Source of the DNA: Loxodes magnus | Lineage: Eukaryota; Ciliophora; Karyorelictea; Loxodida; Loxodidae | Length of the DNA stretch: 64,000 nucleotides | NCBI GenBank assembly: GCA_946699065.1 | Contig: CAMPDV010001182.1 | Coordinates: forward strand, 1-64,000 | Direction: 5' to 3' | Shown: positions 2,835 to 58,340 of the stretch, one piece after another | Layout: every line of letters begins with the position of its first letter | How positions within the stretch are numbered: the first letter of the stretch is position 1 | The notes under the pieces: model-generated | What the model saw: the letters and a program-made list of their open reading frames with translations, nothing else | Databases searched by the model: none | Told to the model about the DNA's origin: nothing | Made by a program: the position numbers and the translations under genes

Positions 2835-3579
2835 AAAAATAAATAAATAATATAGAATACTATTATATTTACATTAAAAATAAAATATTTTAAATTAAAT
2901 TTAAAAAACTTTTGTTTGCTTAAAATAGAAAAGAAATATCATGTTATTATTTACCAAAAATATGCTAAATACAGTCAGCTTAGTTATAGGATTTATCTTC
3001 ACCACCAAATCCTATGAACTGCAAAGCTTAGTGATGCTCTTTAATTTAATACAGCCCAATATTATGATTAAGTTCCAATCGTCCTTATCGAAGTATACTC
3101 CGATTTTAAAAACTAAATACTTATCTCCAAAAAATTATCCAAATAACTCCCATGATAAAAGATTTGAAGGGTTGAAATTCCATAAGCTTGATATTTAAAT
3201 ATTAAAAGTAATTAATTATTTAAAATAAAAGCTTATCTATATTAGATTAAAAAACTAAATTAAAACACAATTATATAAATGATAGTATTATACGTAAAAA
3301 GAATATAAATAAATATATTAATACTCAATAACTATTTTTGTGTACTTATTTTTTCTCTAATTCCTTTTAATTTTATTAAAAGTTTTTAAAAAATAAAAAT
3401 GGAATATCAAATTTTTAAAATGACTTCTTCAGTCTTAATATTATATTAAAATCTTTTATACTAAAAGATATTTAAATTAAATTAAAAATTTACTATTTTA
3501 GATTAATTAAAATATTAAATAGTACGAAGAATATCATAATCAATAAATTAAAAACGTTACACTTAAAAAATTACTTTAA
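2835..3579. other. Spacer upstream of the kinase gene, with a conserved less-AT segment
   Basis: This lies 5' of the kinase ATG. From about 2941 to 3184 base composition is more balanced and conserved in all copies. On the minus strand one frame reads SLWNFNPSNLLSWELF and then a stretch rich in Lys and Asp, and another begins MEFQPFKSFIMGVIW. Neither frame stays convincing for its full length, so I leave the product open; an upstream exon of the kinase gene is possible. The rest is AT-only. Equivalents are 17464-18211, 32115-32859, 46725-47467 and 58341-59093. Confidence 0.4.
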
Positions 3580-15197: not shown

Positions 15198-17463
15198 TCA
15201 TTATTTTAAGATTTCCTTTTCGCATTTATCAAAATTTCATTTTTATTTTCTTCTTGGTTTATGTTTAAACTATAATAAATTGATTCTTAATTTTCCAAAA
15301 AACAATTATCTTAATTCTTTTAAATTTTCCTAATCATAAACTTACTCTATTTATTATTTTTGGCTCCCATTTCTTGATATTTTAATTTTATTATTCTTGC
15401 TAAAGTTATTAATTTTTTATCATCTATATAGCTTATAAAAATTCTTAAGCACTAGGTCTTTCTTGTCAATTAAAACTCAAGCATTTCTTTAACAATTACT
15501 CCAACTCGATATTTTGTTTTATCTCGTTACAAAACTCAGGTATTTTCTTCTCATTCCAATACTTTATTTCTTAAGTTCTACATATTTAAATCATTTGGCC
15601 AAAGTTAACCTTCATTTAATATTTCTATCGCTATACAAGCCAAAGCTCATATATCACTTTATTTGTAAAAACTTATAATTAAATTACTCTGGAGCCATTC
15701 ATTACACTGTCCCTCTCCCTTATTCCGTAAAATCTATCACGCTATTTCTTGATAAACCTAAATCTGCTATTTTAGGAAGATCGTTTTCGTTAAGTAAAAT
15801 ATTTTATGATTTCAAATCTCTATGAATCAAGTTAGAATTGTGAATGGCATTTACTCCTTCTGCTATTTAATAAATCAATTTTATACTTCTTCTCATATCT
15901 AATTTTTTAATCTTTAGTATCTCAAAATAGTTATTTGCTTTATAGTATATTTGTAAAGATTTCCTTTTTACTAAAAATTAGTGATAGTACAAAGAATATA
16001 ATTTTCTTCATCACTTGTATCAAATGCAACTCCTAATAATCTTAGAACTCTATGGCTATTAACAGAGAGAAGAGATTAACACTCTAAATAAAAGTCATTA
16101 ATAATCTATTATTAAGTAATTCCTCGTCTTTATGTCATAACTTTGAGAGCATAATCAAGTCCTTAAATGTTTATTTTGTAAACAATAGCTTATCCGCCTT
16201 TTTCCAATGATTTGTAGAGAGTTAAGAAATTTTGAATTAGGAATGAGATCTTAGTACTTTCAGATTCTAAATTTAAGAATTAGATTAATCACCTGCTCCA
16301 TTTTTTTTCCAATAAGCTAAGAATATCATTGAATGTATATTAAATGTTTTATTTTTCAAATTTATTTTTAAACAAGGTTGAATTTCTTGTAACATTTTAT
16401 CATTTTTTATATTTTAAATTTATTCTTTTTAAACATTTTTAGGATTTTCTTCTAATACAAGATCATTCTAAATGTTTTGCTTCTAAATATCTTCTTCATT
16501 TTTTTATTTAAAATTAACTAGTTATTAGTTGAGAAATTCTATTCTACTACTATTAATTTTTAAATTAAAGTCTTATCTTATTTTATTTATTCATTTGATA
16601 TTTAAATTTGTTATTCTTTTGCATTTAGTTGAACTTATTTTTCTTAAATCGATTTAATTTGCTCATTAAATATATTTTTATTTTTGTTCATTTTAGGTAT
16701 ACTAAATAGCTTCTTATTAATCAATTTATAATTTATGGATTTTATTTATTTTTGTGTTTTCTTCAATATTTCTTATATTTAATTCTAAATTTTCTTATTT
16801 ATCTATACTTTCATTTTTAATTATTTAAGCAAATATATTTATTATTTTTGCACTTATCTTATTTAATTCTTCAATTTCGAATTCAACTTTTATCTATAAT
16901 TATTCAATGCAGTTAAAATCAAAACTTTACTCTATTTATAATATATTTTCACTTTTATTTTTTATGGGCTAAGATTCATAATTATTTTACCAATCAATTC
17001 AGTTGATCTATTTACTGTTGAAGAGTGGTTTGATTTAATTACATTTCTTAATAAAACTTCGTCAAATAGTTTTATAACTTATTCAGTTAATAAGTCTTTA
17101 TTCTTATTATATCTAATTTATTATTCTTTCATATTTTAGTCTGGTAATTTATATTTTCTCTATTGTTTCTTTGCAGTTTGGTTTCTCTTTATTATTCATT
17201 TTTTTTATTTTCTAATCATTCTTGTTCTTTTAAAATTAAGAAATAAGGATTGCTTTCAATTGCTAATTTGCATTAAAAACATTCTTTTGATAAAATTTCA
17301 TTTCATTTATTTTCAATACAATTTTAGCAAATATAGAGTCCACATCATCATTTTTTAAGCTTTTCTCTTACTTTTATCAAATTCTTTTTTACAAAAAGAG
17401 CATTTAGGAAGATTTTCCATTACTTAATTTAAATATAAATAATTATTTGAAATCAAAATACAT
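15198..17463 (-). CDS. RING-coiled coil-protein kinase, copy 2
   Basis: Stop TGA at 15198-15200, start ATG at 17463. The kinase motifs match copy 4. It has several frame-breaking indels (for example extra A/T in homopolymers near 15670, 16300 and 16560). Its N-terminal codons differ (the CCTCAAAATCAT part is reduced), and the segment near 15880-15960 belongs to the variant shared with copy 3 (TTCTTCTCATATC), not to the copies 1/4/5 variant. Confidence 0.78.
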
Positions 17464-18230
17464 AAAAATAAATAAATAATATAGAATACTATTATATTTA
17501 CATTAAAAATAAAATATTTTAAATTAAATTTAAAAAAACTTTTGTTTGCTTAAAATAGAAAAGAAATCTCATGTTATTATTTACCAAAAATATGCTAAAT
17601 ACAGTCAGCTTAGTTGCAGGATTTATCTTCACCACCAAATCCTATGAACTGCAAAGCTTAGTTGATACTCTTTAATTTAATACAGCCCATATTAATGATT
17701 AAGTTCCGCTCGTCCTTATCGAAGTATACTCCGATTTTAAAAACTAAATACTTATCTCCAAAAAATTGTCCAAATAACTCCCATGATAAAAGATTTGAAG
17801 GGTTGAAATTCCATAAGCTTGATATTTAAATATTAAAAGTAATTAATTAATTAAAATAAAAGCTTATCTATATTAGATTAAAAAACTAAATTAAAACACA
17901 ATTATATAAATGATAGTATTATACGTAAAAAGAATATAAATAAATATATTAATACTCAATAACTATTTTTGTGTACTTATTTTTTCTCTAATTCCTTTTA
18001 ATTTTATTAAAAGTTTTAAAAAATAAAAATGGGAATATCAAATTTTTAAAATGACTTCTTCAGTCTTAATATTATATTAAAAATCTTTTATACTAAAAGA
18101 TATTTAAATTAAATTAAAAATTTACTATTTTAGATTAATTAAAATATTAAATAGTACGAAGAATATCATAATCAATAAATTAAAAACGTTACACTTAAAA
18201 AATTACTTTAATAAGTTTAAAAATAAATAA

Positions 18231-29853: not shown

Positions 29854-32114
29854 TCATTATTTTAAGATTTCCTTTTCGCATTTATCAAAATTTTCATTTT
29901 TATTTTCTTCTTGGTTTATGTTTAAAACTATAATAAATTGATTCTTAATTTTCCAAAAAACAATTATCTTAATTCTTTTAAATTTCCTAATCATAAACTT
30001 ACTCTTATTTATTTTTGGCTCCCATTTCTTGATATTTTAATTTTATTATTCTTGCTAAAGTTATTAATTTTTTATCATCTATATAGCTTATAAAAAATTC
30101 TTAAGCACTAGGTCTTTCTTGTCAATTAAAACTCAAGCATTTCTCTTTAACAATTACTTCCAACTCAATATTTTGTTTTATCTCGTTACAAAACTCTGGT
30201 ATTTTCTTCTCATTCAATACTTTATTTCTTAAGTTCTACATATTTAAATCATTTGGCCAAAGTTAACCTTCATTTAATATTTCTATCGCTATACAAGCCA
30301 AAGCTCATATATCACTTTATTTGTAAAACTTATAATTAAATTACTCTGGAGCCATTCATTTACACTGTCCCTCTCCCTTATTCCGTAAAATCTATCACGC
30401 TATTTCTTGATAAACCTAAATCTGCTATTTTAGGAAGACTCGTTTTCGTTAAGTAAAATATTTTATGATTTCAAATCTCTATGAATCAAGTTAGAATTGT
30501 GAATGGCATTTACTCCTTCTGCTATTTAATAAATCAATTTTAACTTCTTCTCATATCTTGATTTTTTAATCTTTAGTATCTCAAAATAGTTATTTGCTTT
30601 ATAGTATATTGTAAAGATTTCCTTTTTACTAAAAATTAGTGATAGTACAAAGAATTTAATCTTCTTCATCACTTGCATCAAAAGCGACTCCTAATAATCC
30701 TAGAACTCTATGGCTATTAACAGAGAGAAGAGATTAACACTCTAGATAAAAGTCATTAATAATCTATTATTAAGTAATTCCTCGTCTTTATGTCATAACT
30801 TTGAGAGCATAATCAAGTCCTTAAATGTTTATTTTGTAAACAATAGCTTATCCGCCTTTTCAATGACTTGTAGAGAGTTAAGAAATTTTGAATTAGGAAT
30901 GAGATCTTAGTACTTTCAAATTCTAATTTAAGAATAAGGTTAATCACCAGCTCCATTTTTTTCCAATAAGCTAAGAATATTATTGAATGTATATTAAATG
31001 TTTTATTTTTTCAATTTATTTTAAACAGGTTGACTTCTTGTAACATTTTTATCATTTTTTATATTTAAAATTTATTCTTTTTAAACATTTTTAGGATTTT
31101 CTTCTAATACAAGAATCATTCTAAATGTTTTGCTTCTAAATATCTTCTTCATTTTTTTATTTAAAATTAGCTAGTTATTAGTTGAGAAATTCTATCTACT
31201 ACTATTAATTTTAAATTAAAGTCTTATCTTATTTTATTTATTCATTTAATATTTAAATTTGTTATTCTTTTGCATTTAGTTGAACTTATTTTTCTTAATC
31301 GATTTAATTTGCTCATTAAATATATTTTTATTTTTGTTCATTTTAGGTATACTAAATAGCTTCTTATTAATCAATTTATAATTTATGGATTTTATTTATT
31401 TTTGTGTTTTCTTCAATATTTCTTATATTTAATTCTAAATTTTCTTATTTATCTATACTTTCATTTTTAATTATTTAAGCAAATATATTTATTATTTTTG
31501 CACTTATCTTATTTAATTCTTCAATTTCGAATTCAACTTTTATCTTTAATTATTCAAATGCAGGTTAAAATCAAAACTTTACTCTATTTATAATATATTT
31601 TCACTTTTATTTTTTATGGGCTAAGATTCATATTATTTTACCAATCAATTTAGTTGATCTATTTACTGTTGAAGAGTGATTTTGATTTAATTACATTTCT
31701 TAAATAAAACTTCGTCAAATAGTTTTATAACTTATTCAGTAATAAGTCTTTATTCTTATTATATCTAATTTATTATTCTTTCATATTTTAATCTGGTAAT
31801 TTATATTTTCTCTATTGTTCTTTGCAGTTTGGTTTCTCTTTATTATTCATTTTTTTTATTTTCTAATCATTCTTGTTCTTTTAAAATTAAGAAATAAGGA
31901 TTGCTTTCAATTGCTAATTTGCATTAAAAACATTCTTTTGATAAAATTTCATTTCATTTATTTTCAATACATTTTTAGCAAATATAGAGTCCACATCATC
32001 ATTTTTAAGCTTTTCTCTTACCTCTATCAAATCCTTTTTACAAAAAGAGCATTTAGGAAGATTTCCAATTACTTAGTTTAAATATCAATAATTATTTCTA
32101 AGATCAAAATACAT
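29854..32114 (-). CDS. RING-coiled coil-protein kinase, copy 3
   Basis: Same gene. Frame breaks here include an extra C in the activation segment (near 30440), an extra T just before MAPE (near 30361), and GCAGG for GCAG near 31563. The length of 2261 bp is not a multiple of three. The variant block near 30540-30600 matches copy 2. Confidence 0.78.
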
Positions 32115-32878
32115 AAAAATAAATAAATAATATAGAATACTATTATATTTACATTAAAAATAAAATATTTTAAATTAAATTTAAAAAACTTTTGTTTGAT
32201 TAAAATAGAAAAGAAATCTCATGTTATAATTTACCAAAAATATGCTAAATACAGTCAGCTTAGTTGCAGGATTGATTCACCACCCAATCCTACGAACTGC
32301 CAAAGCTTAGTGATACTCTTTAATTTAATACAGCCCATATTATGATTAAGTTCCAATCGTCCTTATTGAAGTATACTCTGATTTTAAAAACTAAATACTT
32401 ATCTCCAAAAAATTGTCCAAATAACTCCCATGATAAAAGATTTGAAGGGTTGAAATTCCATAAGCTTGATATTTAAATATTAAAAGTAATTAATTAATTA
32501 AAATAAAAGCTTATCTATATTAGATTAAAAAACTAAATTAAAACACAATTATATAAATGATAGTATTATACGTAAAAAGAATATAAATAAATATATTAAT
32601 ACTCAATAACTATTTTTGTGTACTTATTTTTTCTCTAATTCCTTTTAATTTTATTAAAAGTTTTAAAAAATAAAAATGGAATATCAAATTTTTAAAATGA
32701 CTTCTTCAGTCTTAATATTATATTAAAATCTTTTATACTAAAAGATATTTAAATTAAATTAAAAATTTACTATTTTAGATTAATTAAAATATTAAATAGT
32801 ACGAAGAATATCATAATCAATAAATTAAAAACGTTACACTTAAAAAAATTACTTTATAATAAGTTTAAAAATAAATAA

Positions 32879-40081: not shown

Positions 40082-41331
40082 AAATATAAAATGAAACTAA
40101 AAAGTTTTGGTTTGAAGAATTTAATTAAATTTATTAAATAAGCTTAAAATATTTAAAGTATATAAGTAAGTTTAATTATTGAAAGCATTATGCTAATTAA
40201 TGATTAATTAAGTTAATTTAAAATAATTGAAGTAAAATAAGAAGAAAATCTCATTTGTTAAACTCCTCCCATATAAGTTAAATAATTAATCTTGAATTAA
40301 TAAAGTTAAAATTAAATATAACTATTTTTTATTTTTTAGTAGTTAAAATAATTAATAATTGTCTCAGTTTGATTGGAAGTTAGTAAATAAAAATATTTTA
40401 CTTTTTTGCTATAAAATTAATTTAAAAATATTATTTAACTTCAAAATCTACATAAAAAATGTTAAAAGAAAAGGTTTATATTAAAGCATATATCCTTACA
40501 ATAATAATTTTAATTTTTATATTCTTAATAAAAAGGAAAATATTATTAAGATTAAATAATTGCTATTTCTATATTAAGCAGTTCATTTTAAAATGTTTAT
40601 AAATTTGGAGAAAATTTATATTTTAAATTGTTTATTCATTTAAATTATGAACAAGTTTTAGAAGATAACATTTTTTAATATTGGCTATTACATTTTATTT
40701 ATTTAAAAGTTAGTTTTTGTAACTAGCTTCTACATTTTTTATGAACTAATTAATTAAAAATTATGTTAAAAATCTTATTCAAAACTTAGATAAATCAGCA
40801 AATAAAAATACAAAGAAAAGTGGAGAAAGAAAGTTTTAATTTTAGTAAAATATTGAAAATTAGAAATAGCACATAAACAAATAGGATTAATGTTTAATTA
40901 TTAGTAGATTATGATGAGAATTACTAAACAATTTAAGTAATTTCCTTATTATTGTAGTCAATTATAATTAAAAGTTTCTAAGATAAGAAAATTATATGAG
41001 TCATTGTTTAATTATCAGAATACAAACTAGTAAAAGATAAATGTTAGTTTGGAAATATTAATTCATATAGAGTATAAAATTATTATAGTAATTTAGTTAA
41101 TTATTTAAATTAATATTTTATAATAATAAATCTTAGAAAAAATACTTTAGTGTGGAAATCTTTTTATAAATAAGAAAAATAGTATTTTTTAAATATAAAA
41201 ATAATATAAATTAAAAAATATTTTAAATAACATAAAATTTTATTATTAATCCAAAAAAGAATATTCTATTCAATTTAATTTTTACATAATTAAAATTTCA
41301 TAAATAAAATAAATAAATTTGATTATAGAGC

Positions 41332-44095
41332 GTGTAGCAACTCGTTGGTGCGCAGCTCTTTCCATATCTCAATATATGTCCATTTCTTCAAGTAAGCCTT
41401 CAGGTAATAGAAATTCTTCTCTTATTAGTTACATATCTTCCTCATTTACCTCTATATTATCTCTTGTTCTTCTGTCTTCTACCTAATCTACGCTTTATTA
41501 GATCTTTATTGCAAGCTTAATTTATTTTTTCTTACATATCTTACTAATTTTCATTTCTAATTAGTTTCTTCTTGATCAAACTTTTATACATTCATTAAAA
41601 ATTATCCTTTTCCTGCTCTATAATCTTTTCCTATTTCTTTTTTCGTTCAATTTTCTTTTCTATATATCCTCTTTTCCTTTTTTCTAATATATTTAATCTT
41701 TTATAATCGAATCAGCTTTAGCCTTTTTACTCTTCTTAGGTTCTAATGAATTTCTTGAATTTGGCCGTACCTCATATTATATCAAATAGTTTCATTCCTT
41801 ATTTCTCTACTCCTATTGCTCTAAGATTTCAGATACATTATTATCTTCCTTCTTTGTATTCTGAACAGTTTTATATGATATGCCTTTCATTTTCTCTTGC
41901 ATTATTACAGAAAGGGCATTGACTTGCCATAACTAGGTGTCTTTCTTTTAAGCAATCCTAGTTCCCATTACATCTCGTTCTTATTCTAAATAGGTAACAT
42001 ATTTCTTCTTTTCTATTTTTATTATATCTCAGGTAGTTGTGTGGTCCTACTACATATTCATCAAACCATGCTTTTCTATATTATAATGTTGTTATCATTT
42101 ACTCCAATCTTTCTCTATCTTCTACGTATACTCTATTTTCTCATATTGTGCAATTAATGTTTTTCTAACCTTTTTAATTGTTATTATCATCATCTATTAA
42201 TATTTTTTATCTTCAATTTTTAATTCTAATTTTATTGCTATGCAATATTATTCAAATATAAAATTCTCTTCTTTACTTAGGTCGAAAAATAATCCGTCTA
42301 TTGTTTTTCATTAGTTTCCTATTAATTTGCCTCTTAATCTCAACGTTTTTTTCATAGGTAATGTTTAAATTTCATTAACTGCAATTCGTGTTCTAACATC
42401 TCATTTTGCACTTAAAAAGGGGAGTCTATGATTGTTCGTAAAGATCTTCTCTATATTATTTCTAGTTGCTCCATCACTTATTTTCCTAGAAATTATTCGC
42501 AATATGGGATCACTTCCGTCCAATAACTGAAAACTGAGCTTACGAAGGTTTTTATCATTGATCCTGCATTGTATGGTGTTAATCCCTTATTCATTGTTAT
42601 TTTTCCCAATTTTCATGTTTGCATTTTTTATGCTGCTTCTAGTCTATTCTTCATGTGTTTTCAAAACTGATGTTCTCTTCTATTATATGAGCTAGGTACT
42701 AAAAGGTCGTTACTCTTTAGATCCTTAGATTTCCCACCTTGATAGTATTTACAATATTTTCTCAGTTACTATTTTCTGCTGATTTTCATATCATTCATTT
42801 TGTTTTATCTTCAATTTCCAATTTGTACTTTTCTGCCCATTAGGTTAAATTTTCGATTACTTCTTCTATATATTCCCATTCACTTATAAAAGGCTAGGTC
42901 ATCTGCGTATGCAAAATATCTTTATATATTTCTTATGTTCATCTCTCTTAGTTTTTATAGTATATCGTAGTTCCTAGCTATTAATCTTCCAAACTATGGA
43001 GAAATCTTGCTTTATCAAGTTAAATAGTCTTGGTGAAGTTATGCTTCCCTGTTTTAGTCCTTTATTTATCGCGAATTATTTTGCTATTTAATCATTGATT
43101 TTCATTTTAATTTCTTCTTCACAGTAGAAGTTTGCTAGCAGTTTAATTATCTATTCCGGTACTTTTAGATCGTTTAGGATTTATCGTATATCCTTTCTTT
43201 GCACTGAGTCATAAGCTTTCTTAATAATAAACACTTAAATGAAAATTAATTCAGATTATACAAATATAATCCTAGTTTTATTATTATTACTATAATTAAA
43301 ATTGTTAAGGAGCAGTAAACTACGCATAAAATACATTTCTAAATTTATAAATCCTCAATCTGGAAATTCTTGTTTAATTCATACATTCTTTTTCCTTTTA
43401 TAGTTTTTATTCCATTTCCTTCTTTAAATTTCTCCATTCTTATTGCAAAAAACTATTCTATTCTTTTTCTCTTGGATTAAATTTTTTTTGAAATTTCATG
43501 CAGTTTTTGTACAAATGTCATGAACTATCAAGAAATAGATATTTTCTAGTCCCTTTTTTCAAGTTGCATAATATTCTATAATCTCTTTTACTTCAATATC
43601 CATATTGTCTCTAAGATTCTGTCAACTATAGTGGTTCTTCAAACTCTATTGGATACTTTCAATTTACTAGCTTTAGTCTTTAATACTCTATACTTAGGAA
43701 CTTGTCTGGCTGAATTACTCTCGCTGATAGGTCCATAAGGCGTCAATCTCCCTCTTCTAATTAGCCACTCTTTAATCAAATATATCTTAAAATCCGTGGT
43801 TGATTTACTTGTTAGCTTAATATTTTCTTAATGGAGCTTATTAACCTCTTCCTGGAGGTTCAAAACCACCTTGATGAGTTGTTCTATGCTCATATGTTTA
43901 GAAGGATTGAGTTTTAAGACCTCCTGATGTAAGGTGGAATTCATCTATTTCTCGGTTTCTATTCTGAAGTTGACTTTATTGCATTATGGATCTTTTTCTA
44001 CAGTTTTCATCTCCTCGTAGTTCAACTGATTTCCGGTACTCTACTTCCTTGAAGCGGCAAAGAATTCCCTTCTGAAGTCTGACATCTTTTTCCAA
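41332..44095 (-). pseudogene. Non-LTR (LINE-type) reverse transcriptase, copy 3 (reference copy)
   Basis: RNA-dependent DNA polymerase of a LINE-type retrotransposon. It starts MSDFRREFF at 44095. The N-terminal coiled-coil module (about residues 45-90) is shared with the protein at 39137-40081. RT motifs: KAYDSV (motif A, 43202-43219), GLKQGSITSPRLFNL (motif B), FAYADDLAF (motif C, 42898-42909), then VTTFQYLAHII, TEVIPY and QRRSLRTIIDSP of the thumb/C-terminal domain, ICYLFRIRTRCNGNQD, and a finger CPFCNNARENERHIIQNC (from 41907). The frame changes between motifs B and C, right after YADDLAFYK, and again further on, at the same places in all copies. No endonuclease domain is seen in the roughly 290 codons before motif A, where the RT fingers are also missing or interrupted by AT-rich sequence. 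Confidence 0.85.
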
Positions 44096-44467: not shown

Positions 44468-46724
44468 TCATTATTTTAAGATTTCCTTTTCGCATTTATC
44501 AAAATTTTCATTTTTATTTTCTTCTTGGTTTATGTTTAAACTATAATAAATTGATTCTTAATTTTCCAAAAAACAATTATCTTAATTCTTTTAAATTTCC
44601 TAATCATAAACTTACTCTTATTTATTTTTTGGCTCCCATTTCTTGATATTTTAATTTTATTATTCTTGCTAAAGTTATTAATTTTTTATCTTCTATATAG
44701 CTTATAAAAATTCTTAAGCACTAGGTCTTTCTTGTCAATTAAAACTCAAGCATTTCTTTAACAATTACTCCAACTCGATATTTTGTTTTATCTCGTTACA
44801 AAACTCAGGTATTTTCTTCTCATTCAATACTTTATTTCTTAAGTTCTACATATTTAAATCATTTGGCCAAAGTTAACCTTCATTTAATATTTCTATTGCT
44901 ATACAAGCCAAAGCTCATATATCACTTTATTTGTAAAACTTATAATTAAATTACTCTGGAGCCATTCATTACACTGTCCCTCTCCCTTATTCCGTAAAAT
45001 CTATCACGCTATTTCTTGATAAACCTAAATCTGCTATTTTAGGAAGATCGTTTTCGTTAAGTAAAATATTTTATGATTTCAAATCTCTATGAATCAAGTT
45101 AGAATTATGAATGGCATTTACTCCTTCTGCTATTTAATAAATCAATTTTAACTTTTTTAATCCTTTTATATTTTAATCTTAAGTTTCTCAAAATAGTTGC
45201 TAGTTTTATATTATGCTGTAAAGATTTCCTTTTTATTAATAGTTTGTGATAGTACAAAGAATATAATTTTCTTCATTACTTGCATCAAAAGCGACTCCTA
45301 ATAATCCTAGAACTCTATGGCTATTAACAGAGAGAAGAGATTAACACTCTAGATAAAAGTCATTAATAATCTATTATTAAGTAATTCCTCGTCTTTATGT
45401 CATAACTTTGAGAGCATAATCAAGTCCTTAAATGTTTATTTTGTAAACAATAGCTTATCCGCCTTTTCCAATGATTTGTAGAGAGTTAAGAAATTTTGAA
45501 TTAGGAATGAGATCTTAGTACTTTCAGATTCTAATTTAAGAATTAGATTAATCACCAGCTCCATTTTTTTCCAATAAGCTAAGAATATTATTGAATGTAT
45601 ATTAAATGTTTTATTTTTCAATTTATTTTTAAACAAGGTTGACTTCTTGTAACATTTTATCATTTTTTATATTTTAAATTTATTCTTTTTAAACATTTTT
45701 AGGATTTTCTTCTAATACAAGATCATTCTAAATGTTTTGCTTCTAAATATCTTCTTCATTTTTTTATTTAAAATTAGCTAGTTATTAGTTGAGAAATTCT
45801 ATCTACTACTATTAATTTTAAATTAAAGTCTTATCTTATTTTATTTATTCATTTGATATTTAAATTTGTTATTCTTTTGCATTTAGTTGAACTTATTTTT
45901 CTTAATCGATTTATTTTTCTTATTGAATATATTTTTATTTTTGTTAATTTTAGGTATACTAAATAGCTTCTTATTAATCAATTTATAATTTATGGATTTT
46001 ATTTATTTTTGTGTTTTCTTCAATATTTCTTATATTTAATTCTAAATTTTCTTATTTATCTATACTTTCATTTTTAATTATTTAATCAAATATATTTATT
46101 ATTTTTGCACTTATCTTATTTAATTCTTCAATTTCGAATTCAACTTTTATCTATAATTATTCAATGCAGTTAAAATCAAAACTTTACTCTATTTATAATA
46201 TATTTTCACTTTTATTTTTTTTTATCGGCTAAGATTCATATTATTTTACCAATTTATTTAGTTGATCTATTTACTGTTGAAGAGTGGTTTTGATTTAATT
46301 ACATTTCTTAAATAAAACTTCGTCAAATAGTTTTATAACTTATTCAGTAATAAGTCTTTATTCTTATTATATCTAATTTATTATTCTTTCATATTTTAAT
46401 CTGGTAATTTATATTTTCTCTATTGTTCTTTGCAGTTTGCTTTCTCTTTATTATTCATTTTTTTTTATTTTCTAATCATTTTTGTTCTTTTAAAATTAAG
46501 AAATTTGAATTAATTTCATTAGCTAATTTGCATTAAGAACATTCTTTTGATAAAATTTCATTTCATTTATTTTCAATACATTTTTAGCAAATATAGTATC
46601 CACATCATCATTTTTAAGCTTTTCTCTTACTTTTATCAAATTCTTTTTTACAAAAAGAGCATTTAGGAAGATTTCCAATTACTTAGTTTTAATATAAATA
46701 ATGATTTTGAGGATCAAAATACAT
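44468..46724 (-). CDS. RING-coiled coil-protein kinase, copy 4
   Basis: About 752 codons. Residues 20-65: RING-like finger CSFC...C-G-Y-Y-I-CQNC...ECSQC; the position of the usual His ligand is Tyr. About 70-400: Gln-rich coiled coil. About 410-680: kinase with GKGGQAIVYK (Gly loop), YALKVM (ATP-binding Lys), FYLEC (alpha-C Glu), LIHRDLKSQNILL (catalytic loop), IADLGLS (DLG for DFG), GTVQWMAPE, SDIWALACIAIEIL, NWQERPSA. The Trps of WMAPE (44966-44968), DIWA (44915-44917) and NWQER (44735-44737) are TGA. The only frame error is one extra A in a run near 46462. All catalytic residues are present, so it should be an active Ser/Thr or TKL-type kinase; with a RING it may couple ubiquitination to phosphorylation (inference). 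Stop is TGA after AAATAA. Confidence 0.9.
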
Positions 46725-47486
46725 AAAAATAAATAAATAATATAGAATACTATTATATTTACATTAAAAATAAAATATTTTAAATTAAATTTAAAAAACT
46801 TTTGTTTGCTTAAAATAGAAAAGAAATATCATGTTATAATTTACCAAAAATATGCTAAATACAGTCAGCTTAGTTACAGAATTTATCTTCACCACCAAAT
46901 CCTACGAACTGCAAAGCTTAGTGATACTCTTTAATTTAATACAGCCCATATTATGATTAAGTTCCAATCGTCCTTATCGAAGTATACTCCGATTTTAAAA
47001 ACTAAATACTTATCTCCAAAAAATTGTCCAAATAACTCCCATGATAAAAGATTTGAAGGGTTGAAATTCCATAAGCTTGATATTTAAATATTAAAAGTAA
47101 TTAATTAATTAAAATAAAAGCTTATCTATATTAGATTAAAAAACTAAATTAAAACACAATTATATAAATGATAGTATTATACGTAAAAAGAATATAAATA
47201 AATATATTAATACTCAATAACTATTTTTGTGTACTTATTTTTTCTCTAATTCCTTTTAATTTTATTAAAAGTTTTAAAAAATAAAAATGGAATATCAAAT
47301 TTTTAAAATGACTTCTTCAGTCTTAATATTATATTAAAATCTTTTATACTAAAAGATATTTAAATTAAATTAAAAATTTACTATTTTAGATTAATTAAAA
47401 TATTAAATAGTACGAAGAATATCATAATCAATAAATTAAAAACGTTACACTTAAAAAATTACTTTAATAAGTTTAAAAATAAATAA

Positions 47487-48283
47487 TAATAATATATACT
47501 TAATTGTTTAAAGTTTTTGCTCTTCCTGGGCTTTCAACCAGTACCTGCAGCCATTTTTTTTACGTGATGAATGCCACTAATAGCTATTTTCAGTTCTCGC
47601 TAAAATTTTCTATTTATAAATTCCATCTTTCGTTATTCAGAGTTTATTGAGGTTTCTTCATGTTCTTCGTTCTTCTCTTATTTGGAGTTTCTCTCAAGCT
47701 CAGCATTTTCGTAGAATGTGATTATTCGCCTTACAGTATCAGCAGTTTTTGGTCTATTTTTCTTAAATTTTCTTCTAAAAAACTTTTTTTCCAGTTTCTC
47801 TATTCTCATTTATATGTTTATATCAATTTTTTCTTCTTGTTTCAATTATTAGTCAGTTAATTTATTCTTTTTCTATAATCATGTTCTATTATTAACTAAC
47901 TATGGATTGCGATTGTTCATAAAGTTATAATTCTGTTACTAAGTTATTTTAGATTAACTGACGAAGTAGTATTAATAATTCATTATTTTGGTCGTCAATA
48001 CCGTTCATTAATTCTCTTATTTTTTCCCCTTGATTGTAAATTGTTTCTTCGTATTTTTGGATTAGTTTTTTCATTTGATCTAACTGACTTTAGAGTTTTT
48101 TATCAGTTTCACTCTTAGATTCCTGAATATCGATTGGTCCGACCATAACTTTTCCTTCAGAAGAAGAACTTGAATCCTCTTTTTGCTGTTAAATTTTCTG
48201 TATTTCTTCTTAAGTTTCTTAGTTAATTGTTTGAGAGACGAACAGATAATTCCATTTGTTTTCTAAAATATTGCTTATAGACT
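47487..48283 (-). mobile_element. Short non-LTR-type retroelement, unit copy 4
   Basis: Direct repeats 47468-47486 and 48284-48302. The module upstream of the terminal hairpin is the ACGTGATGAATGCCA variant only, directly joined to CTAATAGC, so this copy has lost the GTAGGTTATC part seen in copies 1, 2 and 5. Confidence 0.8.
47503..48255 (-). pseudogene. Coiled-coil protein of the short retroelement, copy 4
   Basis: ATG at 48255. After the shared N-terminal frame change it reads QEEIQKIQQQKEDSSSSSEG and on through a coiled coil with YNQGEKIRELMNGIDDQNNE. The low noise in this copy supports the frame change being real. Confidence 0.58.
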
Positions 48284-48571
48284 TAAGTTTAAAAATAAAT
48301 AAAAGTTTAATTTATTAAAATTTACTTTTTATTTTAAAAATTATTCAAGAATTATGAGTGAAATCTGAATCCCTTTTGAAATATGCTATAAAGATTAATT
48401 AATTAATCTATTATTTTTGCTTTTGAATCAAAAAAATAGATTAAATATTAAAGAATTTGCAAAAATAGATTTCTAAATAGAATTTAATATAGAGGAGTTA
48501 ACAGGGTGAAAATAGATAAAATCGAAATATATAATCAGGAGAGCAAATGGATTTAATATAATATAGAAAAA

Positions 48572-49262
48572 ATGAACAAATTCTTGCAATAAGTCTCTTC
48601 TTAAAAGGATTCATCTTAGTCAAAATATGATTAATAAAAATTACTTTAAGAACTTTAAGTTATGCAATTAGAAAATTTTAAACTCCTAAGAAAAGTATAA
48701 GAACTAGAAAGAAAAATAGAATATCTGATAATTAACTCACAAGAGAACTAAATTTAAAATAAACAGTCAGGAAATATCAGAATAGAAAAGTTAGCAGAAA
48801 AATTCAACCAATTCGCAGAGTTAACAGAAAGCATATTCTTATAAAAAATATAAGTGAATGATCCGATGGATGTTGAGCAACAGCCCATAACAACTTTCAT
48901 TCCGTATCGGAAAATAATGAGATCCTGGTACTGCAAGCGGCCAGGGCGCAAAGTAACAAGATGCTTCTAATTTTAATTTAAAAAAATAATAAAAAACTAA
49001 TTGGAAAATATTTTCAGGATCTATTGCAACTAAGAAGGTAAACTGTATAGAAAAAATACTACAACTAAAGAGTAAAGCTTCTTATATCTAATAGGCGGTT
49101 AATAAAAAGTGACTGAGACTCGACCTATCGGAAAAGATTAGAAATAGCAATCTAAAAATCACCAAGACTTATGATGGAAAAAATCCAAACAGATTTGATA
49201 CTTATACTTTAAACTTAAAGGTGATTAACCTAAAAAACGCAGAGGCACTATAATCTATTATT
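48572..49262 (+). CDS. Coiled-coil protein with decayed zinc knuckle, copy 4
   Basis: MNKFLQQVSSQKDSS, coiled coil, DPMDVEQQPITT, SWYCKRPGRKV (no His ligand), YCNQEGKLYRK (49022-49054), KTYDGKNPNRFDTYTLN. Homologous to the CCHC gene on the opposite strand. The Ser-for-Cys and Arg-for-His changes are in every copy, so they predate the amplification. Confidence 0.6.
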
Positions 49263-50780
49263 TATTTATATTTCTAAATAAAAAAAGATTTACAAAATAT
49301 TTCAAAAATTTTAGATTTTAAATAAATACTTAAAATGTTTATAGAGTTACATAAAATAATAAATAAAATTTCGTAATAAGATAAAATAATATAATTAGAT
49401 AAATACATAGAATTACACAGAAGAAAAATAGCGATATGAAATATAACTAATAATTTTGACTCAGAAGGTATAAATGATTTACCGTAATTTAAAAAGAAAT
49501 GTTTTAATTAATGCTATAAAGCATAATTATTGATAATATTTGGTATATATTAATTTATTAAAGAATGATAATTAAAACAATTTTGATGTCTAATTTATAG
49601 ACTCTCTTTGTAAATAAAAATATTAAATTGCAAAGATTATTTATTTATAAATAAGTATGTTAAATTCTAATAAATATTTCATATATAAAATTTTAGCAAG
49701 TAACTTATATAATTTTATTTAGACGAATAATTAAGAAAAAAGTACTAAAATGTTATAAGTAAAATAAAAGATGTAAGACAAAAGAGTAAATAAAAAGCAC
49801 TATAAAATTTGCTTTTATGATGTTTTCTAATTATTTTATAAAAGTTAGTAATTAATATAAAAAATGAATTAAAATTTAAATAAAAGTTAGCATTTTGATT
49901 AGAAATTTTAATTTTAACCTAATTTTAATATAAGTTTAAAGTTACTTAGATAAAAATAAATAGTTAGATTTTTTAATTTTGTAAATTATTTTGAAAGTAA
50001 ACATTAATTTTGTTTACTTTTATATCGAGATAAATTATTTTAACATATAAAAAATTACTTTTATAGAATATAAGTTTGTCTGCAAATATTAATTAATGCT
50101 ATGACAAATTTTTGATTAAACATTAAAATTAGAATTTAAAAACATTTTTTAAGTTTAACTATCTTAAATATGTCTTATTTAAAAAAATAAAAAAGTTGTG
50201 AATATCTTTATAAATAATGGCTTTTCTAATCTAATAAATAGATTGATTTATTAAGTTTTAAATATTAATGCATTTATTTTAATTTTGATTCCATTAATTG
50301 ATTGAAATATTATTTTTGCTATTTTAATTAAGCAAATTAATTTTAGATGATTATAAATAAAAAATATAAACTTTATAAATAATTTATAAACTTATTTAAC
50401 TTCTAAATCTATTATTCTAGTATTTTAAAATTTAACTTTTTTAAATAATTTCTTATAATTGTAAATAAAATTTATAGATTTTTATTCTTAGAAACATTAA
50501 ACTAAACGAGAAAGTTTATCTTTTAAATGCTTTAATATACTTATAGCTAATTACAGTACGTTATAGTAAAAACTTCTAAATATTTTTTATAATTTGTTTG
50601 TAATTGAAAATATATACTTAAATTTTAATTACTTATATCTATTTAGTTTACATATAAGCTTAGTTTCTTTAAACATTTTTATTATTAATGATATATTATT
50701 TTTATCAAAATACCACTTTTAAGTTTACCTTTCTAAATCTTAAAATATCTTATATGCTTTTTTATTTTATTATACTTAAA

Positions 50781-51566
50781 ATGGATCCAAAGAAGTCAAT
50801 TGCATAAAGTATATAAAACTATTAACAATAAGAAAAACTCATAGACATTTACTCCTTAGAAGCATAACTAAAAATATTAGAATATGTTGAAGATTTAGTC
50901 AATTAATAAATCGAGATAGATCGCTGGCTAATTTGCTATTTTATCTCAAAATGAGAATACTACGATTAAAACAGAAATCAATCTTAAACATTATATCATC
51001 TAGTTTAACTAAAAACTGTAAAAATAAGAGTAAAAATATACAGAAATCTCAAATGCGCTCTAGTTAGGAATCTATTTTTCTAATTTTTAAAAAGATCTAA
51101 AGAAATAGTACCGCAGGTTAAAGCAGCTAAAATTAATAAAAAAATTAAAATGCTAACCCTGAAGAAAAATTTAACATATCTCTAGAATATGCAATATAAA
51201 ATGCTGATTTTGTGAAAGGATTGAGCATATATCTAGCAATTACAGATACTTTTAGAGGAAATAATAATATGAAAACAAAAATCTATGAAGGAATATACTA
51301 AAATATACTGCATTCCAGAAGGAAATGTTTACAGGAAGAAAATATTTGTTGGGGATCAATCGCCTCTGAAAATTATTAATGCATAAAAAGTAGAAAAACA
51401 CAAACTTTTGGTAAATACTGAGATTGAAGTGAAATTCCTACAATTGAGAAAAGTTAAATTTACTCATGCCGACATTTCAAAGAAGGAATTGATTCAGATG
51501 ATAACCAGAACTATTGATTTAAATGCAACAACTTTTAAACTCTTTGATTCGTAACAAACCAAATGA
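50781..51566 (+). CDS. MDPKKS gene, full-length copy
   Basis: The only complete copy. It starts MDPKKSIAQSIQNY and runs about 262 codons to TGA at 51564-51566, with TAR as Gln and a few TGA as Trp. Motifs seen: a long helical N-terminal half, KIYCIPEGNVYRKKIF (51302-51346) that matches YCNQDGKLYRKK of the gag-like genes, then a helix and FKLFDSQQTK. From base 51130 on, the sequence is absent from the other four copies. It is probably a fourth member of the YCN-motif family; its function is unknown. TGA as the terminator is chosen because the coding quality drops after it. Confidence 0.6.
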
Positions 51567-51626
51567 AGGTAGCCCTACATTAATAAATAATGCTATGTTA
51601 TCAACTAAAAATTTAAGTAAATGTTA
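51130..51626. other. 497-bp TA-flanked segment present only in unit copy 4
   Basis: Copies 1, 2, 3 and 5 read GCAGCTACTTTTCATGG across this point. Copy 4 reads GCAGCTAAAATT, then 497 bp, then AATGTTACTTTTCATGG. The segment is bounded by TA on both sides, one of which remains in the short copies. It encodes the C-terminal half of the MDPKKS gene, so the short copies are better explained as a deletion. TA-bounded loss is also how some ciliates excise internal eliminated sequences. Confidence 0.75.
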
Positions 51627-51627
51627 C

Positions 51628-52385
51628 TTTTCATGGATTTTCAAGCCATTCTAATTATCCATTTTTATCGAGGTTAAGTTCCTGATTTATTTTTAATGTG
51701 GATTGTTACACCACTTCCCTCCATCTGACTGAGACTGATTCTATATCCAATCTTTTTTTGATTCTATTCTTATTTATGAAAATTCTTGTTATTTTTCTTC
51801 AGATTATTTAGTTCTCTTGTCTTTTAAATCTTCTATAGCCAGAACAGTGCTTTATTAGATTTTGGGAAGAATTGCAACATAAGCGTCTGTTTATTTTTAA
51901 GTTACTATTTTTATTTTACATTTAATACACAAATTTTTCCAATCTTCTTACTATTTAAATTCTTTCAAATTATTTTAATTATCTAATTGAATAAAGTGGT
52001 ATCAGTCTTTATTTCTTCAGTAAGCATAGAAACTTCTTCTAGTTGCTTTATAATTAACATCACAACAGTTCTTCTGTTAAAACTTTGCTTTGAACAAATT
52101 ACTTCCATAATCATGTTATTTCTAAAGACAGTTGTTTAGTATGTCATTAGTCCTCTTATTCTATCTTAAAGAATGTAAAATACCTCATCAAGCTTGCTGA
52201 AAGCTTTATTCATTTTGTCTTATATTGATATTTGAATTCATTTTCCTATTATATTATTAAAATTACTCTTAATTTCCATATAATCACTTCCTCTGATTTG
52301 ATAACGAAGATTCAGATGATTTTTGTTTCTTCCTGCCTAACTTATCTTATAACCTTTCTTTGTATATTTTTTGATGTTTTTTCTC
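51628..52385 (-). mobile_element. Second coiled-coil element, copy 4 (5' end at the array break)
   Basis: Hairpin 51633-51649. The frame reads RLQDKLGRKKQKSSESSLSN on the 5' side, matching the Ser-rich part of the 61546 element, and DEVFYILQDRIREL downstream. The match to other units stops at about 52385, near the 5' end of this element, so the break may coincide with an element boundary. Confidence 0.5.
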
Positions 52386-53075
52386 TCTTTTTCCCTAATT
52401 TGTTATTTTTTCCTTTGATATTTATAATATTTATTATAAAAAGTATTAAAATAAATTAATTAAGAAATATTAAAACTATTATTTGAATTAGATTTCTAAT
52501 TTATTAGCAAAAATATTAATTAACTTTAAAGAAATATATTTAGCTTAAGCTTTAAAGTATTATTTTATTATCTTAGAAAAATTTATTTTCTAAATAAAAA
52601 TTATATAGACTAGTTTTCTAATTTATAAAAGCTTTAAAATAAGTTAGATATTTTTTGTAAATTTTAAAATATTTACTATTTAAAAAATTTTATTAAATAG
52701 AATTAAATTTTGATTTAAAAGATAAATTCCAAAATTAATTTTATTATAGAAATTTTATATTAAAAAGGTTTAACTACTATAATTATTGTTAATAGATCTT
52801 AATAGAATAAATTAATTTCGATATTCAAAATAATTTTAAGATAATAGATTAATAAAATGAGCTAAAGATAAAATTTTCTTATATATCTTTAAAATAAAAT
52901 TACTTTTTAAATTATATTTTTATTTAAATTTACAAAATCACTATACCAATAAAAATTATTTTATAATTTTTTTTAAATAATATTAACGTTTATAAACATT
53001 TTAAAAGATTAATTAAAAAAGAGATAACTGAAGATTTTTTCAATAAATAAAACTAAATTAATAATTGCTTTTTAA
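52386..53075. other. Non-unit AT-rich sequence
   Basis: Start of the 3.8-kb block that is not part of the unit. A/T-dominated, no ORF or RNA signal that I can support. Confidence 0.5.
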
Positions 53076-53083
53076 GTAGATCA

Positions 53084-53612
53084 GTATTTTCCATCGATTT
53101 TCAGAGTCATTCACCTGTTTAATACAAAAAATTTATTTCTTTTAGCCGTTTTTAAAAATTCTTGCTTTATCCAATTCACTTTTTTCCTTGCTGATGATGA
53201 TATTTTACTCTAAAAATTTATTTTTATTCTTTTTTTGTAGTAAAAATGAAATTAAGAACTTAGTCTTGTGACAAGATTCTCGAATCATTTTTTTAATGTT
53301 TTAAAGATAATCCTTTAGTTTCTCACTGTCTTTCTCAAAATTAAAAGCTCATTTTTTAAATTAAATATATCTTAAATATTTACACAAATCTTGCATATTT
53401 ATTTTAAAATTTTATTCCTTTTTTTGAGTAAATACCAATTTATATTATTTTATAGTTTTATCTTCACTGATTAAAGTTGCAATTGGTATATTGCTGAATT
53501 TTCCTTTTTAGAATTATTATAATATCAATTGCTTATTCTCTCAGAATCTTAGAAAAATACCTTTCATATTCATTAACATCTTGATTAAATAGCATTTTTT
53601 GCCAAATGAATA
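53084..53612 (-). pseudogene. Possible relic of a hairpin-ended coiled-coil element
   Basis: A minus-strand frame, open with TAR=Gln and TGA=Trp, from MLFNQDVNEYERYF to a Lys/Gln-rich tail ending GEWLWKSMENTD. The end resembles the last codons of the second coiled-coil element (MAWKSMKSS), and the DNA there (CCATCGATTTTCAGAGTC) resembles its hairpin with a broken stem. No RING, RT or knuckle motif. Weak call. Confidence 0.35.
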
Positions 53613-53777
53613 ACACTAAAACGAATAATAGAGTATGCTTATAGATTATTATTTAATTAAATAAAGCATAAACTCTTTTTTATTTAACTTTTATATCATA
53701 TATCTTCAAATAATTTAATGTTCAATATTTTCTGATAAAATATAATTAATTTTTTAATTTTTAAATAGAAATGGCAG

Positions 53778-54000
53778 ATTATAGAGCGTTTAGCTCTGTA
53801 ATGACGTGAGTTATTATATTTTAATATATCTTAAACTCTTTAGGAAACGCTTCTTCAATCTTGCCCATAATTTCATTTTCTTCTATGTTCTCTTTCTTAA
53901 AGCGTCTATGTTCTCTTTTCCTTCTTTTTATTTGTTCATTTTATTGGTCTTAAAACATTTTCTTTTTCTAATCTGATATTCTCTTTCTTATAGAGCAAGA
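53778..54000 (-). pseudogene. Relic of an RT-element 3' end
   Basis: On the minus strand the sequence reads EEAFPKEFKIYQNIITHVIT and ends in AGAGC-TAAAC-GCTCT followed by ATAAT (hairpin 53783-53797). The unit RT ends EEMDIYWDMERAAHQRVATR over the same AGAGC...GCTCTATAAT. The upstream Lys/Glu-rich codons also resemble the RT tail. A 5'-truncated LINE copy is the simplest reading. Confidence 0.5.
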
Positions 54001-54324
54001 AATAGACTAATATTAGAGAGAGGTTAAATAATAATTTTATGAGACTATCAGATTCTAGTCTCAATAAAACTTTTTTACTCAGCTGACACTAAATCTTCAG
54101 AAAGTTGCAGTAAAAAGGGTATAGATATGATAAAGTAAAATATAAATTCACATTTCATGAAAGATAATAGACACTCAATAATAATTGAAAGCAAAACTTA
54201 AATCTTTATTTTTAATTATTTTTATTCAAATGATTAAATTATTTAATTTATATCTAAAATACTTTTTTTAATATAAAATACTTTTAGACGTAATCATTAT
54301 TAAGTTTTATTAAATCATATAATA
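54001..54324. other. Short gap with one strong hairpin
   Basis: Mostly AT. TGAGACTA-TCAGATTC-TAGTCTCA at 54040-54063 is a perfect 8-bp stem with an 8-base loop. No gene is seen around it. Confidence 0.5.
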
Positions 54325-54736
54325 AGAGGTATCGGCTGTGCTTGGAGAACTAGTGGGCAATCTGGTGTAATTTATACTGTATTGCGAGTAATCTCGTACT
54401 AGATGCTACCACGGAAAAGGATAGACAAAATCGGAAGAGACAAGCCTAACTTGCCTGATGGTTCTCACTGGTAGTATGAACGTTAGACTGAGGAGTCTTC
54501 TAACTAATGACTTAATAACTAATTCTTATTTGGACCTTATTCAAGAAGACAGGAGCATTTTATTCAAGATTCGAGAATAATCTTTAATAAGTAGATTTCC
54601 ATTTAGAGAAGAAGATGTGGCTCATTGGACTACTAGAATTTAAAAAAGAAGTATGAGAACATTCTTTCTTAATATTTAATATTAATATTAATATTGAAAG
54701 AGCTGCGCGCCAGCAAGGTGTCATGCGCTCCATAAT
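54325..54736 (+). mobile_element. SINE-like element with GC-richer head and RT-type 3' end
   Basis: About 410 bp, clearly richer in G and C than anything near it (starting GAGGTATCGGCTGTGCTTGG). An AATATT repeat (54671-54695) follows, then AAAGAGCTGCGCGCCAGC...GCGCTCCATAAT, which matches the 3' terminus of the unit's RT element (AAAGAGCTGCGCACCAACG...ACGCTCTATAAT) on the opposite strand. A short non-coding head joined to a LINE-type 3' end is the SINE design. The head is not a tRNA, 5S or 7SL that I can recognise; box A/B matches are poor. One frame gives DKPNLPDGSHWQYER, so a decayed coding origin is possible. Confidence 0.5.
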
Positions 54737-55212
54737 AATCTTTAATAATTTATAAGGAATCATAATTTTCTTTATTAAAAATTGAAAAGTATTTGTTAAA
54801 TATTATGTAAGTAAAATATAAAAAATTATATAAAAATAGCTTACAAAATTAATCAAAAAATACTTAATTAAGAATAAAATATTTTTAATATACAAAAACT
54901 AACTATTTATTGATAATGATATATAAGTTAAATATATAAATTATGATATAAAATATTCAAAATTACTTTAAGATCATTTTTAATATCAATATATGCAAAA
55001 ATTCATAAAATAATCGAAATTCATCAATTGATATAAGATGTTCATTATTTTAACTTTATGTATAGTACTTTTTCTAAAATTTATTATTTTTACAATTCCA
55101 AGAAATTTCAATATAATACAATATTTTTTTAGAATTTTGAATACTAAAATAAATTAAAAAAAATTAAAATAATACTATTTATGCTTTAAATTTGCAATTA
55201 ATTATATTTAAA
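54737..55212. other. AT-only spacer
   Basis: No coding or structural signal except that the frame of the next gene remains open into it until a TGA near 54985. Confidence 0.5.
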
Positions 55213-55234
55213 AGTTAAAGTTAAAGTTAAAAAG
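55211..55234 (-). repeat. (AACTTT)n short tandem repeat
   Basis: Three and a half AACTTT units on the minus strand at the 3' end of the preceding gene. Comparable in position to the ATT tail of the short retroelements. Confidence 0.6.
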
Positions 55235-56074
55235 CTTTGTTAAAGCCTTAGTAGTCAGCCATATGACCTATTCTATCAGCTTGTCTCCATTAGTTTGTCT
55301 TGAATTTCTACTAGGCTTAGTTAGGCGGTGTAGCATTTCATTAGCGCACCATCCTTTAATATTCTGAATAGTTTTCATCTTGCAAGTAGCTTTCCTAATT
55401 ATTTCTCCAAGGATTAAGATTTGAATTAAAGAATTTTTTTCTATAAATTTTTCCGCTTTATGTTGGATATATCCTAAATAGTTTTCTAAAAATATCTTAT
55501 TTATTCTCTCTTTAAATTTCGCTTAGTTAGTAGCAGTATTTTCATTGGTTTTATGATTTCACACGTAGCATTTTATTCTTCTTTTAGCCTATTATTCCTG
55601 TAACACTTATTTAATTTAAATTTACTACTTATTTTAAATAAACGTTTACTGTTTATTTTAATTTGAGGCTTCATTTTCTATTTCCATAGGATCTGATTAA
55701 TTCTGTTAAATCGAAAATGGCGTAACCTGAATTTATTATTAAATTTAAAGAATTCTTTGTTCCAGTTTGTTTTCTATTTCTTATGATAATTAATATTGTT
55801 TCTCAAGTAAAGACGTTATTAGTTTTTCTAATTTTTCTACTTTATCAGTGAGGTATCTATTTTTAAATATAAACTCTTTTAATGACTTAGATAATATTTC
55901 TATTTGAGTTTGTGTCGGAAGTTTTTTTAATTCTGGATTTCCAAGTGGTTAATGCTCGTCATATCAATCATATTTCTCACTTTCACTCATTGTAATTATT
56001 TAGCTTTTTTATTTTTTAGAGAATTTTCCTGTTTAAATGTTTTGCTCAAAGTTCTGTTATTTCTTAGAAGCCAT
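55213..56074 (-). CDS. Diverged gag-like coiled-coil protein
   Basis: An uninterrupted minus-strand frame of about 287 codons, MASKKQQNFEQNIQ (56074) or MSESEKYDWYDEHQPLGNPE (55990). It has a coiled coil (about SKSLKEFIFKNRYLTDKVEK), SDPMEIENEAS (compare NDPMDVEQQP of the gag-like genes), then RRIKCYVWNHKTNEN at the place of the zinc knuckle (one Cys left), and WCANEMLHRLTK. The DNA for that last segment resembles the RT element terminus (GCGC...GAAATGCTACACCGC). It ends at a (AACTTT)n run, a possible simple-repeat tail. TGA is Trp at YDWYD and YVWNH. It looks like a distant member of the same retroelement protein family. The stop is undetermined; TAA in the tail or a TGA near 54985. Confidence 0.6.
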
Positions 56075-58340
56075 TTTATTATATATATAATATTATATAT
56101 ATTTAATAAAAAAGAAATAAATCATTAAAGATAGTTTATCCTTTTATGATTCTTTTAAATAATAAAAAAGTTGATTTTTTATTTTACAAAAAACAATTAT
56201 CTTAATTCTTTTAAATTTTTTAATCATAAACTTCCTCCTATTTATTTTTTGACTCCCATTTCTTGATATTTTAATTTTATTATTCTTGCTAAAGTTATTA
56301 ATTTTTTATCTTCTATATAGCTTATAAAAATTCTTAAGCACTAGGTCTTTCTTTTCAATTATAACTCAAACATTTCTTTAACAATTACTCCAACTCAATA
56401 TTTTGTTTTATCTCGTTACAAAACTCTGGTATTTTCTTCTCATTCAATACTTTATTTCTTAAGTTCTACATATTTAAATCATTTGGCCAAAGTTAACCTT
56501 CATTTAATATTTCTATTGCTATACAAGCCAAAGCTCATATATCACTTTATTTGTAAAACTTATAATTAAATTACTCTGGAGCCATTCATTACACTGTCCC
56601 TCTCCCTTATTCCGTAAAATCTATCACGCTATTTCTTGATAAACCTAAATCTGCTATTTTAGGAAGATCGTTTTCGTTAAGTAAAATATTTTATGATTTC
56701 AAATCTCTATGAATCAAGTTAGAATTATGAATGGCATTTACTCCTTCTGCTATTTAATAAATCAATTTTAACTTTTTTAATCCTTTTATATTTTAATCTT
56801 AAGTTTCTCAAAATAGTTGCTAGTTTTATATTATGCTGTAAAGATTTCCTTTTTATTAATAGTTTGTGATAGTACAAAGAATATAATTTTCTTCATTACT
56901 TGCATCAAAAGCGACTCCTAATAATCCTAGAACTCTATGGCTATTAACAGAGAGAAGAGATTAGCACTCTAGATAAAAGTCATTAATAATCTATTATTAA
57001 GTAATTCCTCGTCTTTATGTCATAACTTTGAGAGCATAATCAAGTCCTTAAATGTTTATTTTGTAAACAATAGCTTATCCGCCTTTTCCAATGACTTGTA
57101 GAGAGTTAAGAAATTTTGAATTAGGAATGAGATCTTAGTACTTTCAAATTCTAATTTAAGAATAAGGTTAATCACCTGCTCCATTTTTTTCCAATAAGCT
57201 AAGAATATCATTGAATGTATATTAAATGTTTTATTTTTCAATTTATTTTTAAACAAGGTTGACTTCTTGTAACATTTTATCATTTTTTATATTTTAAATT
57301 TATTCTTTTTAAACATTTTTAGGATTTTCTTCTAATACAAGATCATTCTAAATGTTTTGCTTCTAAATATCTTCTTCATTTTTTTATTTAAAATTAACTA
57401 GTTATTAGTTGAGAAATTCTATCTACTACTATTAATTTTAAATTAAAGTCTTATCTTATTTTATTTATTCATTTGATATTTAAATTTGTTATTCTTTTGC
57501 ATTTAGTTGAACTTATTTTTCTCAATAATTTGATTTTTCTTATTGAATATATTTTTATTTTTGTTAATTTTAGGTATACTAAATAGATTCTTATTAATCA
57601 ATTTATAATTTATGGATTTTATTTATTTTTGTGTTTTCTTCAATATTTCTTATATTTAATTCTAAATTTTCTTATTTATCTATACTTTCATTTTTAATTA
57701 TTTAATCAAATATATTTATTATTTTTGCACTTATCTTATTTAATTCTTCAATTTCGAATTCAACTTTTATCTATAATTATTCAATGCAGTTAAAATCAAA
57801 ACTTTACTCTATTTATAATATATTTTCACTTTTATTTTTTATGGACTAAGATTCATATTATTTTACCAATCAATTCAGTTGATCTATCTACTATTGAAGA
57901 GTGGTTTTGATTTAATTACATTTCTTAAATAAAACTTCGTCAAATAGTTTTATAACTTATTCAGTAATAAGTCTTTATTCTTATTATATCTAATTTATTA
58001 TTCTCTCATATTTTAATCTGGTAATTTATATTTTCTCTATTGTTCTTTGAAGTTTGCTTTCTCTTTATTATTCATTTTTTTTATTTTCTAATCATTTTTG
58101 TTCTTTTAAAATTAAGAAATAAGGATTGCTTTCAATTGCTAATTTGCATTAAGAACATTCTTTTGATAAAATTTCATTTCATTTATTTTCAATACAATTT
58201 TAGCAAATATAGAGTCCACATCATCATTTTTAAGCTTTTCTCTTACTTTTATCAAATTCTTTTTTACAAAAAGAGCATTTAGGAAGATTTCCAATTACTT
58301 AGCTTAAATATCAATAATGATTTTGAGGATCAAAATACAT
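56046..58340 (-). CDS. RING-coiled coil-protein kinase, copy 5 (fully open, exchanged C-terminus)
   Basis: 2295 bp, exactly 765 codons from ATG at 58340 to TGA at 56046-56048, with no frame break in the TAR=Gln, TGA=Trp code. The RING reads CSFC...C-G-L-Y-I-CQNC...CSQC, with Leu at the His position. The kinase domain is as in copy 4: GKGGQAIVYK, YALKVM, LIHRDLKSQN, DLG, VQWMAPE, SDIWAL, WQERPSA. After QDNCFL the tail differs from the other units because the unit homology ends at about 56187; the new tail reads QNKKSTFLLFKRIIKGQ and overlaps the start of the next gene by 29 bp. The kinase core is unaffected, so the product may still work. Confidence 0.88.

Follow-up and report, generated by a model that had tools for sequence, protein, structure and literature searches.

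The karyorelict ciliates, Loxodes among them, are described as using NCBI table 27, in which TAA and TAG encode glutamine and TGA either encodes tryptophan or signals stop (PMC11441545). As set out in the text of the same report, UGA is the sole stop codon and is read as tryptophan where it lies sufficiently upstream of the poly(A) tail, and the genomes of Loxodes are rich in LINEs and tandem repeats (PMC11441545). The word 'tRNA' does not occur in the main text of that report. Elsewhere, a shortened, 4-bp anticodon stem is reported to let tRNA-Trp(CCA) read UGA; this form has been described for Blastocrithidia and Condylostoma, and is reported too in Blepharisma and Loxodes (PMC13092985).

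Here, a 64,000-nt stretch of Loxodes magnus DNA (the window; bases 1-64000 of contig C1182) was analysed, with tRNA and gene searches extended to the entire assembly of 705,730,643 bases in 7,843 contigs. At the DNA level, the residue assignments of the three codons are established, as is the ending of histone H4 genes in TGA, and the nuclear DNA of this organism, as represented by the macronuclear assembly, almost certainly uses table 27, with TAA and TAG as Gln and TGA as Trp internally and as stop terminally. The code is already known, table 27 having previously been stated for Loxodes, and the karyorelict-type code suggested by the original prediction fits that statement (PMC11441545). Mechanistically, TAA and TAG would be decoded as Gln, and TGA as Trp within coding sequences and as stop at their ends, where the terminal UGA may act as a stop owing to its closeness to the poly(A) tail, a step taken from the literature.

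Under the standard code, the window contains no open frame of at least 120 codons. An unbroken frame under table 27 is by itself no evidence, because that table has no stop-only codon; a domain match is. Translated with table 27 and searched for domains, the region proved to be a protein kinase, matching Pfam Pkinase with E-values of 4.5e-39 (copy 4) and 1.4e-40 (copy 5). The kinase reading frame drew 2490 matches in a Protein Data Bank search, and a six-frame Pfam scan of one 14.6-kb unit under table 27, at a threshold of E 0.01, returned no families other than those of kinases. An exact stretch of the kinase was sought in viral contigs and was absent from them.

The 14.6-kb unit is arranged in tandem, with starts near positions 1, 14623, 29276, and 43894 and a partial unit from 56154. 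Besides the kinase gene, the unit carries a reverse-transcriptase-like region and two segments of the CCHC type, and identity among the long blocks of the array ranges from 96.5 to 98.3%. An inverted repeat of about 500 bases, with 77% identity between its arms, is also seen in each unit (4692-5190 and 8271-8763). The kinase copies, all on the minus strand, are 96.0 to 98.0% identical to copy 4: copy 1 (580..2878) is 98.0% identical, with indels that break the frame, while copies 2 (15201..17507; 96.0%) and 3 (29857..32158; 96.2%) carry many one-base indels. Compared pairwise, array copies 1-3 (1-43893) differ by 149 to 189 one-base indels over 14.5 kb; between array copies 4 and 5, 7 indel events and 82 substitutions were counted over 5.4 kb. 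The dense indels among copies 1-3 probably reflect, for the most part, assembly error within the repeat, perhaps through weak polishing.

Copy 4 (44468..46768, minus strand) runs for 766 codons (44471-46768) up to a terminal TGA (44468-44470). A single base upstream of its kinase domain sets it apart from the other four kinase copies. The end of the gene can be made out in this copy alone, where it is probably TGA. Its frame holds 5 in-frame TGA and 2 TGG codons, and the conserved kinase tryptophans of WMAPE (44966..44968), SDIWA (44915..44917), and WQERPS (44735..44737, all minus strand) are indeed encoded by TGA, exactly where they had been placed from inspection of the letters. Copy 5 (56154..58340, minus strand) consists of a zinc-finger-like start, a Gln-rich middle, and a kinase domain, with its 3′ end outside the array repeat. 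It had been credited with 765 codons and about 13 TGA; both counts were slightly high, the frame comprising 729 codons with 75 TAA, 17 TAG, 15 CAA, no CAG, 12 TGA, and 2 TGG. Ahead of the copy 5 kinase domain lies a FYVE-like zinc finger (58180-58290, minus strand; E 1.2e-4), whose 22.6 bits fall under the cut-off of 27.8.

Other parts of the unit carry TGA in comparable settings. The reverse-transcriptase-like region (41300..43500, minus strand) is spread over several frames and has TGA in CIWNLRAIG (41831) and FDIIWG (41774); its zf-RVT match, at 17.8 bits, is below the cut-off of 27.5. The CCHC knuckle beginning CWYC (47733..47744, minus strand) has TGA at the Trp position. This codon is TGA in all eight occurrences of CWYC and in all three of CIWNLRAIG, where it would probably be read as Trp.

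The meaning of each codon was assessed against a kinase profile built from 113 of the 120 listed homologues (1,161 found). From 5,592 candidates in the genome, 136 kinases were scored and listed; the first 42 of these, unselected, were tallied together with copy 5 of the window (n=43). TAA, TAG, and TGA were masked before alignment, columns with a posterior symbol of 7, 8, 9, or * were kept, and the background was taken from the profile itself, yielding 10,313 well-aligned codons for scoring, with results reported for codons seen at least 15 times. As a control, the standard residue was recovered for all 58 scored sense codons. For TAA (187 codons), Gln was the best residue at 94.5 bits, followed by Glu at 75.4; for TAG (98 codons), Gln again led, with 54.9 bits over 39.0 for Glu; and for TGA (33 codons), Trp scored 38.9 bits and Tyr 34.3. 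The original prediction, that TAA and TAG are read as Gln and TGA as Trp, is thus borne out by the best residues over 43 kinases.

The lead of Trp over Tyr for TGA, 4.6 bits, is narrow because the key columns of the profile allow both residues. An earlier and partly selected set of 29 loci, 20 of which had been picked mostly for containing TGA and in which two genes entered the count double (L004/L039 and L007/L040), gave Tyr 35.0 and Trp 33.7. At the column of the conserved kinase tryptophan (DxW), the 43 kinases have TGG in 28 cases, TGA in 12, TAT in 2, and TAC in 1. Of the 33 TGA codons, 8 fall in a single column where the profile prefers Pro. CAMK-type kinases often carry Trp at that column. 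The proposal that TGA is the main tryptophan codon holds for the window kinase and fails over the 43 kinases at large, where 33 TGA stand beside 54 TGG.

How genes end was examined in histone H4, for which the genome gave nine matches, each covering residues 1-103. In all eight of the genes read, TGA follows immediately after GFGG, and the invariant Gln of NIQGITKP is encoded by TAG in two and by TAA in one. Within one small gene, then, TAR encodes Gln and TGA terminates. The dual role claimed for TGA is accordingly seen, as Trp within kinases and as terminator in histone H4.

The 3′ flanks of the kinases provide a second view. Beyond the kinase domain, GC content over 45 bases dropped at the first in-frame TGA (0.340 to 0.243; 39 loci). 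The drop was smaller for the first TAA (0.332 to 0.285; 43 loci) and the first CAA (0.311 to 0.291; 43 loci), and there was hardly any for TAG (0.301 to 0.299; 43 loci). Among ten kinase loci read further, chosen for their similar end distances, six show EF-hands, recognised by eye, and then an immediate TGA. At another locus (L061), the sequence beyond the first TGA is still coding-like, as expected of a sense TGA.

It is on these gene ends that table 27 parts from the Condylostoma code, NCBI table 28, in which all three codons are at once sense and stop. The sense meanings of the two tables are identical, and some of the GC fall does occur at the first TAA after the kinase domains; yet none of the eight H4 genes read, from one family read closely, ends in TAA or TAG, all eight end in TGA, and UGA is given as the only stop in Loxodes (PMC11441545), all of which makes table 28 very improbable here. 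A reading of the three codons as real stops, lying in pseudogene copies or removed by introns or editing, could appeal to the many one-base indels and broken frames of kinase copies 1-3 and to the scattering of the reverse-transcriptase-like region over several frames, but it has next to no likelihood and was rejected, given that these codons turn up again, at positions where the residue fits, in 42 further kinases and in histone H4, where single in-frame TAA or TAG codons sit at an invariant Gln. Table 31, which assigns TAA and TAG to Glu, was likewise rejected, with Gln placed above Glu for each codon in the kinase profile.

With table 27 as the favoured code, UGA within genes calls for a tRNA-Trp able to read it. 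The two forms that such a tRNA might take fared differently. A tRNA-Trp(UCA) was not found: an anticodon-loop and T-arm pattern gave four matches in the assembly and eight in the reversed control, and ARAGORN called none of the four as a tRNA, with the qualification that such patterns fix the spacing between loop and T-arm, so that an unusual tRNA-Trp(UCA) could escape them. An earlier UCA pattern, with a D-loop layout that was doubtful, had given no matches, as had its control, and carries no weight. The same loop and T-arm pattern set for CCA identified 128 tRNA-Trp(CCA)-like sites, against six in the control, and their places are known for the first 100.

The tRNA-Trp(CCA) genes include two arrays. 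On contig C67, 48 genes were read, spaced mostly 186 to 190 bases apart, and on C148 a further 33 were read, with a spacing of mostly 241 bases. In every one of the 81 array genes read, the anticodon stem is reduced to 4 bp, position 27:43 being unpaired, with A opposite C in one array and T opposite C in the other; it is in this form that a putative UGA-reading tRNA-Trp is present. Dispersed CCA matches among those with known places lie on C12, C110, and C143, and the one that was read, on C110, has five stem pairs. Of the 63 matches scored with the general tRNA family, the 30 loci cut out (L009-L038) are solely tRNA-Lys(UUU) and tRNA-Ala(UGC). Some of these genes are themselves regularly spaced in arrays, and amplification is therefore not peculiar to Trp.

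On the side of termination, a search of the genome with PF03463 returned three matches. Two are eRF1-like genes (L095 and L096) situated 35 kb apart on contig C196, scoring 51.4 and 51.2 bits, and both contain GRAQNIKS and FLCENTF, with the Q encoded by TAA in each. Human eRF1 has GTASNIKS and YLCDNKF at these motifs, in comparison with which the NIKS loop of the two Loxodes genes appears to be changed. The third and best match, on C2 at 100.7 bits, looks like Pelota.

How sense and stop readings of UGA coexist is a matter on which these components permit a tentative and rather doubtful suggestion, namely, that gene dosage sustains UGA as Trp, the choice between sense and stop being set by the balance of tRNA to eRF1, and partly by way of copy number. 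The tandem amplification of the putative UGA-reading 4-bp-stem tRNA-Trp(CCA) in two arrays (A27 and T27) would supply one side of such a balance, alongside a rare 5-bp form of tRNA-Trp; both eRF1 copies, with the seemingly altered NIKS loop (RAQNIKS), may make up the other. Whatever its fate, the arrays of tRNA-Trp genes, together with the loop of eRF1, offer a concrete handle on sense/stop discrimination in codes of this kind, and the occurrence of 4-bp and 5-bp tRNA-Trp forms in one genome means that the two can be compared for UGA reading. More broadly, the present analysis amounts to a confirmation, from raw DNA, of one of the few nuclear codes that lack a dedicated stop codon.

Among the described systems, the locus stands closest to the karyorelict code of NCBI table 27, as given for Loxodes magnus (PMC11441545) and Parduczia (PMC4967479), with the same sense meanings and the same TGA gene ends, and without any difference seen from what those reports describe. 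Its tandem repeats and LINE-like elements also fit the published description of the Loxodes genomes (PMC11441545). Condylostoma magnum, under table 28, similarly has sense meanings for all 64 codons, and its nuclear tRNA-Trp(UCA) is reported as not found (PMC4967479), as none was found here by pattern; there, however, all three codons terminate as well, whereas the eight H4 genes read here end in TGA. Blastocrithidia, under table 31, shares the reading of TGA as Trp, but decodes TAA and TAG as Glu (PMC12153298), where in Loxodes Gln outscores Glu for both. The tRNAs invite a parallel comparison: the array genes have the same CCA anticodon and the same broken top stem pair, 27:43, as the 4-bp-stem tRNA-Trp(CCA) already described (PMC13092985), and beside the tRNA-Trp of that report, the Loxodes set is distinguished by separate A27 and T27 arrays and by a dispersed gene with a stem of five pairs.
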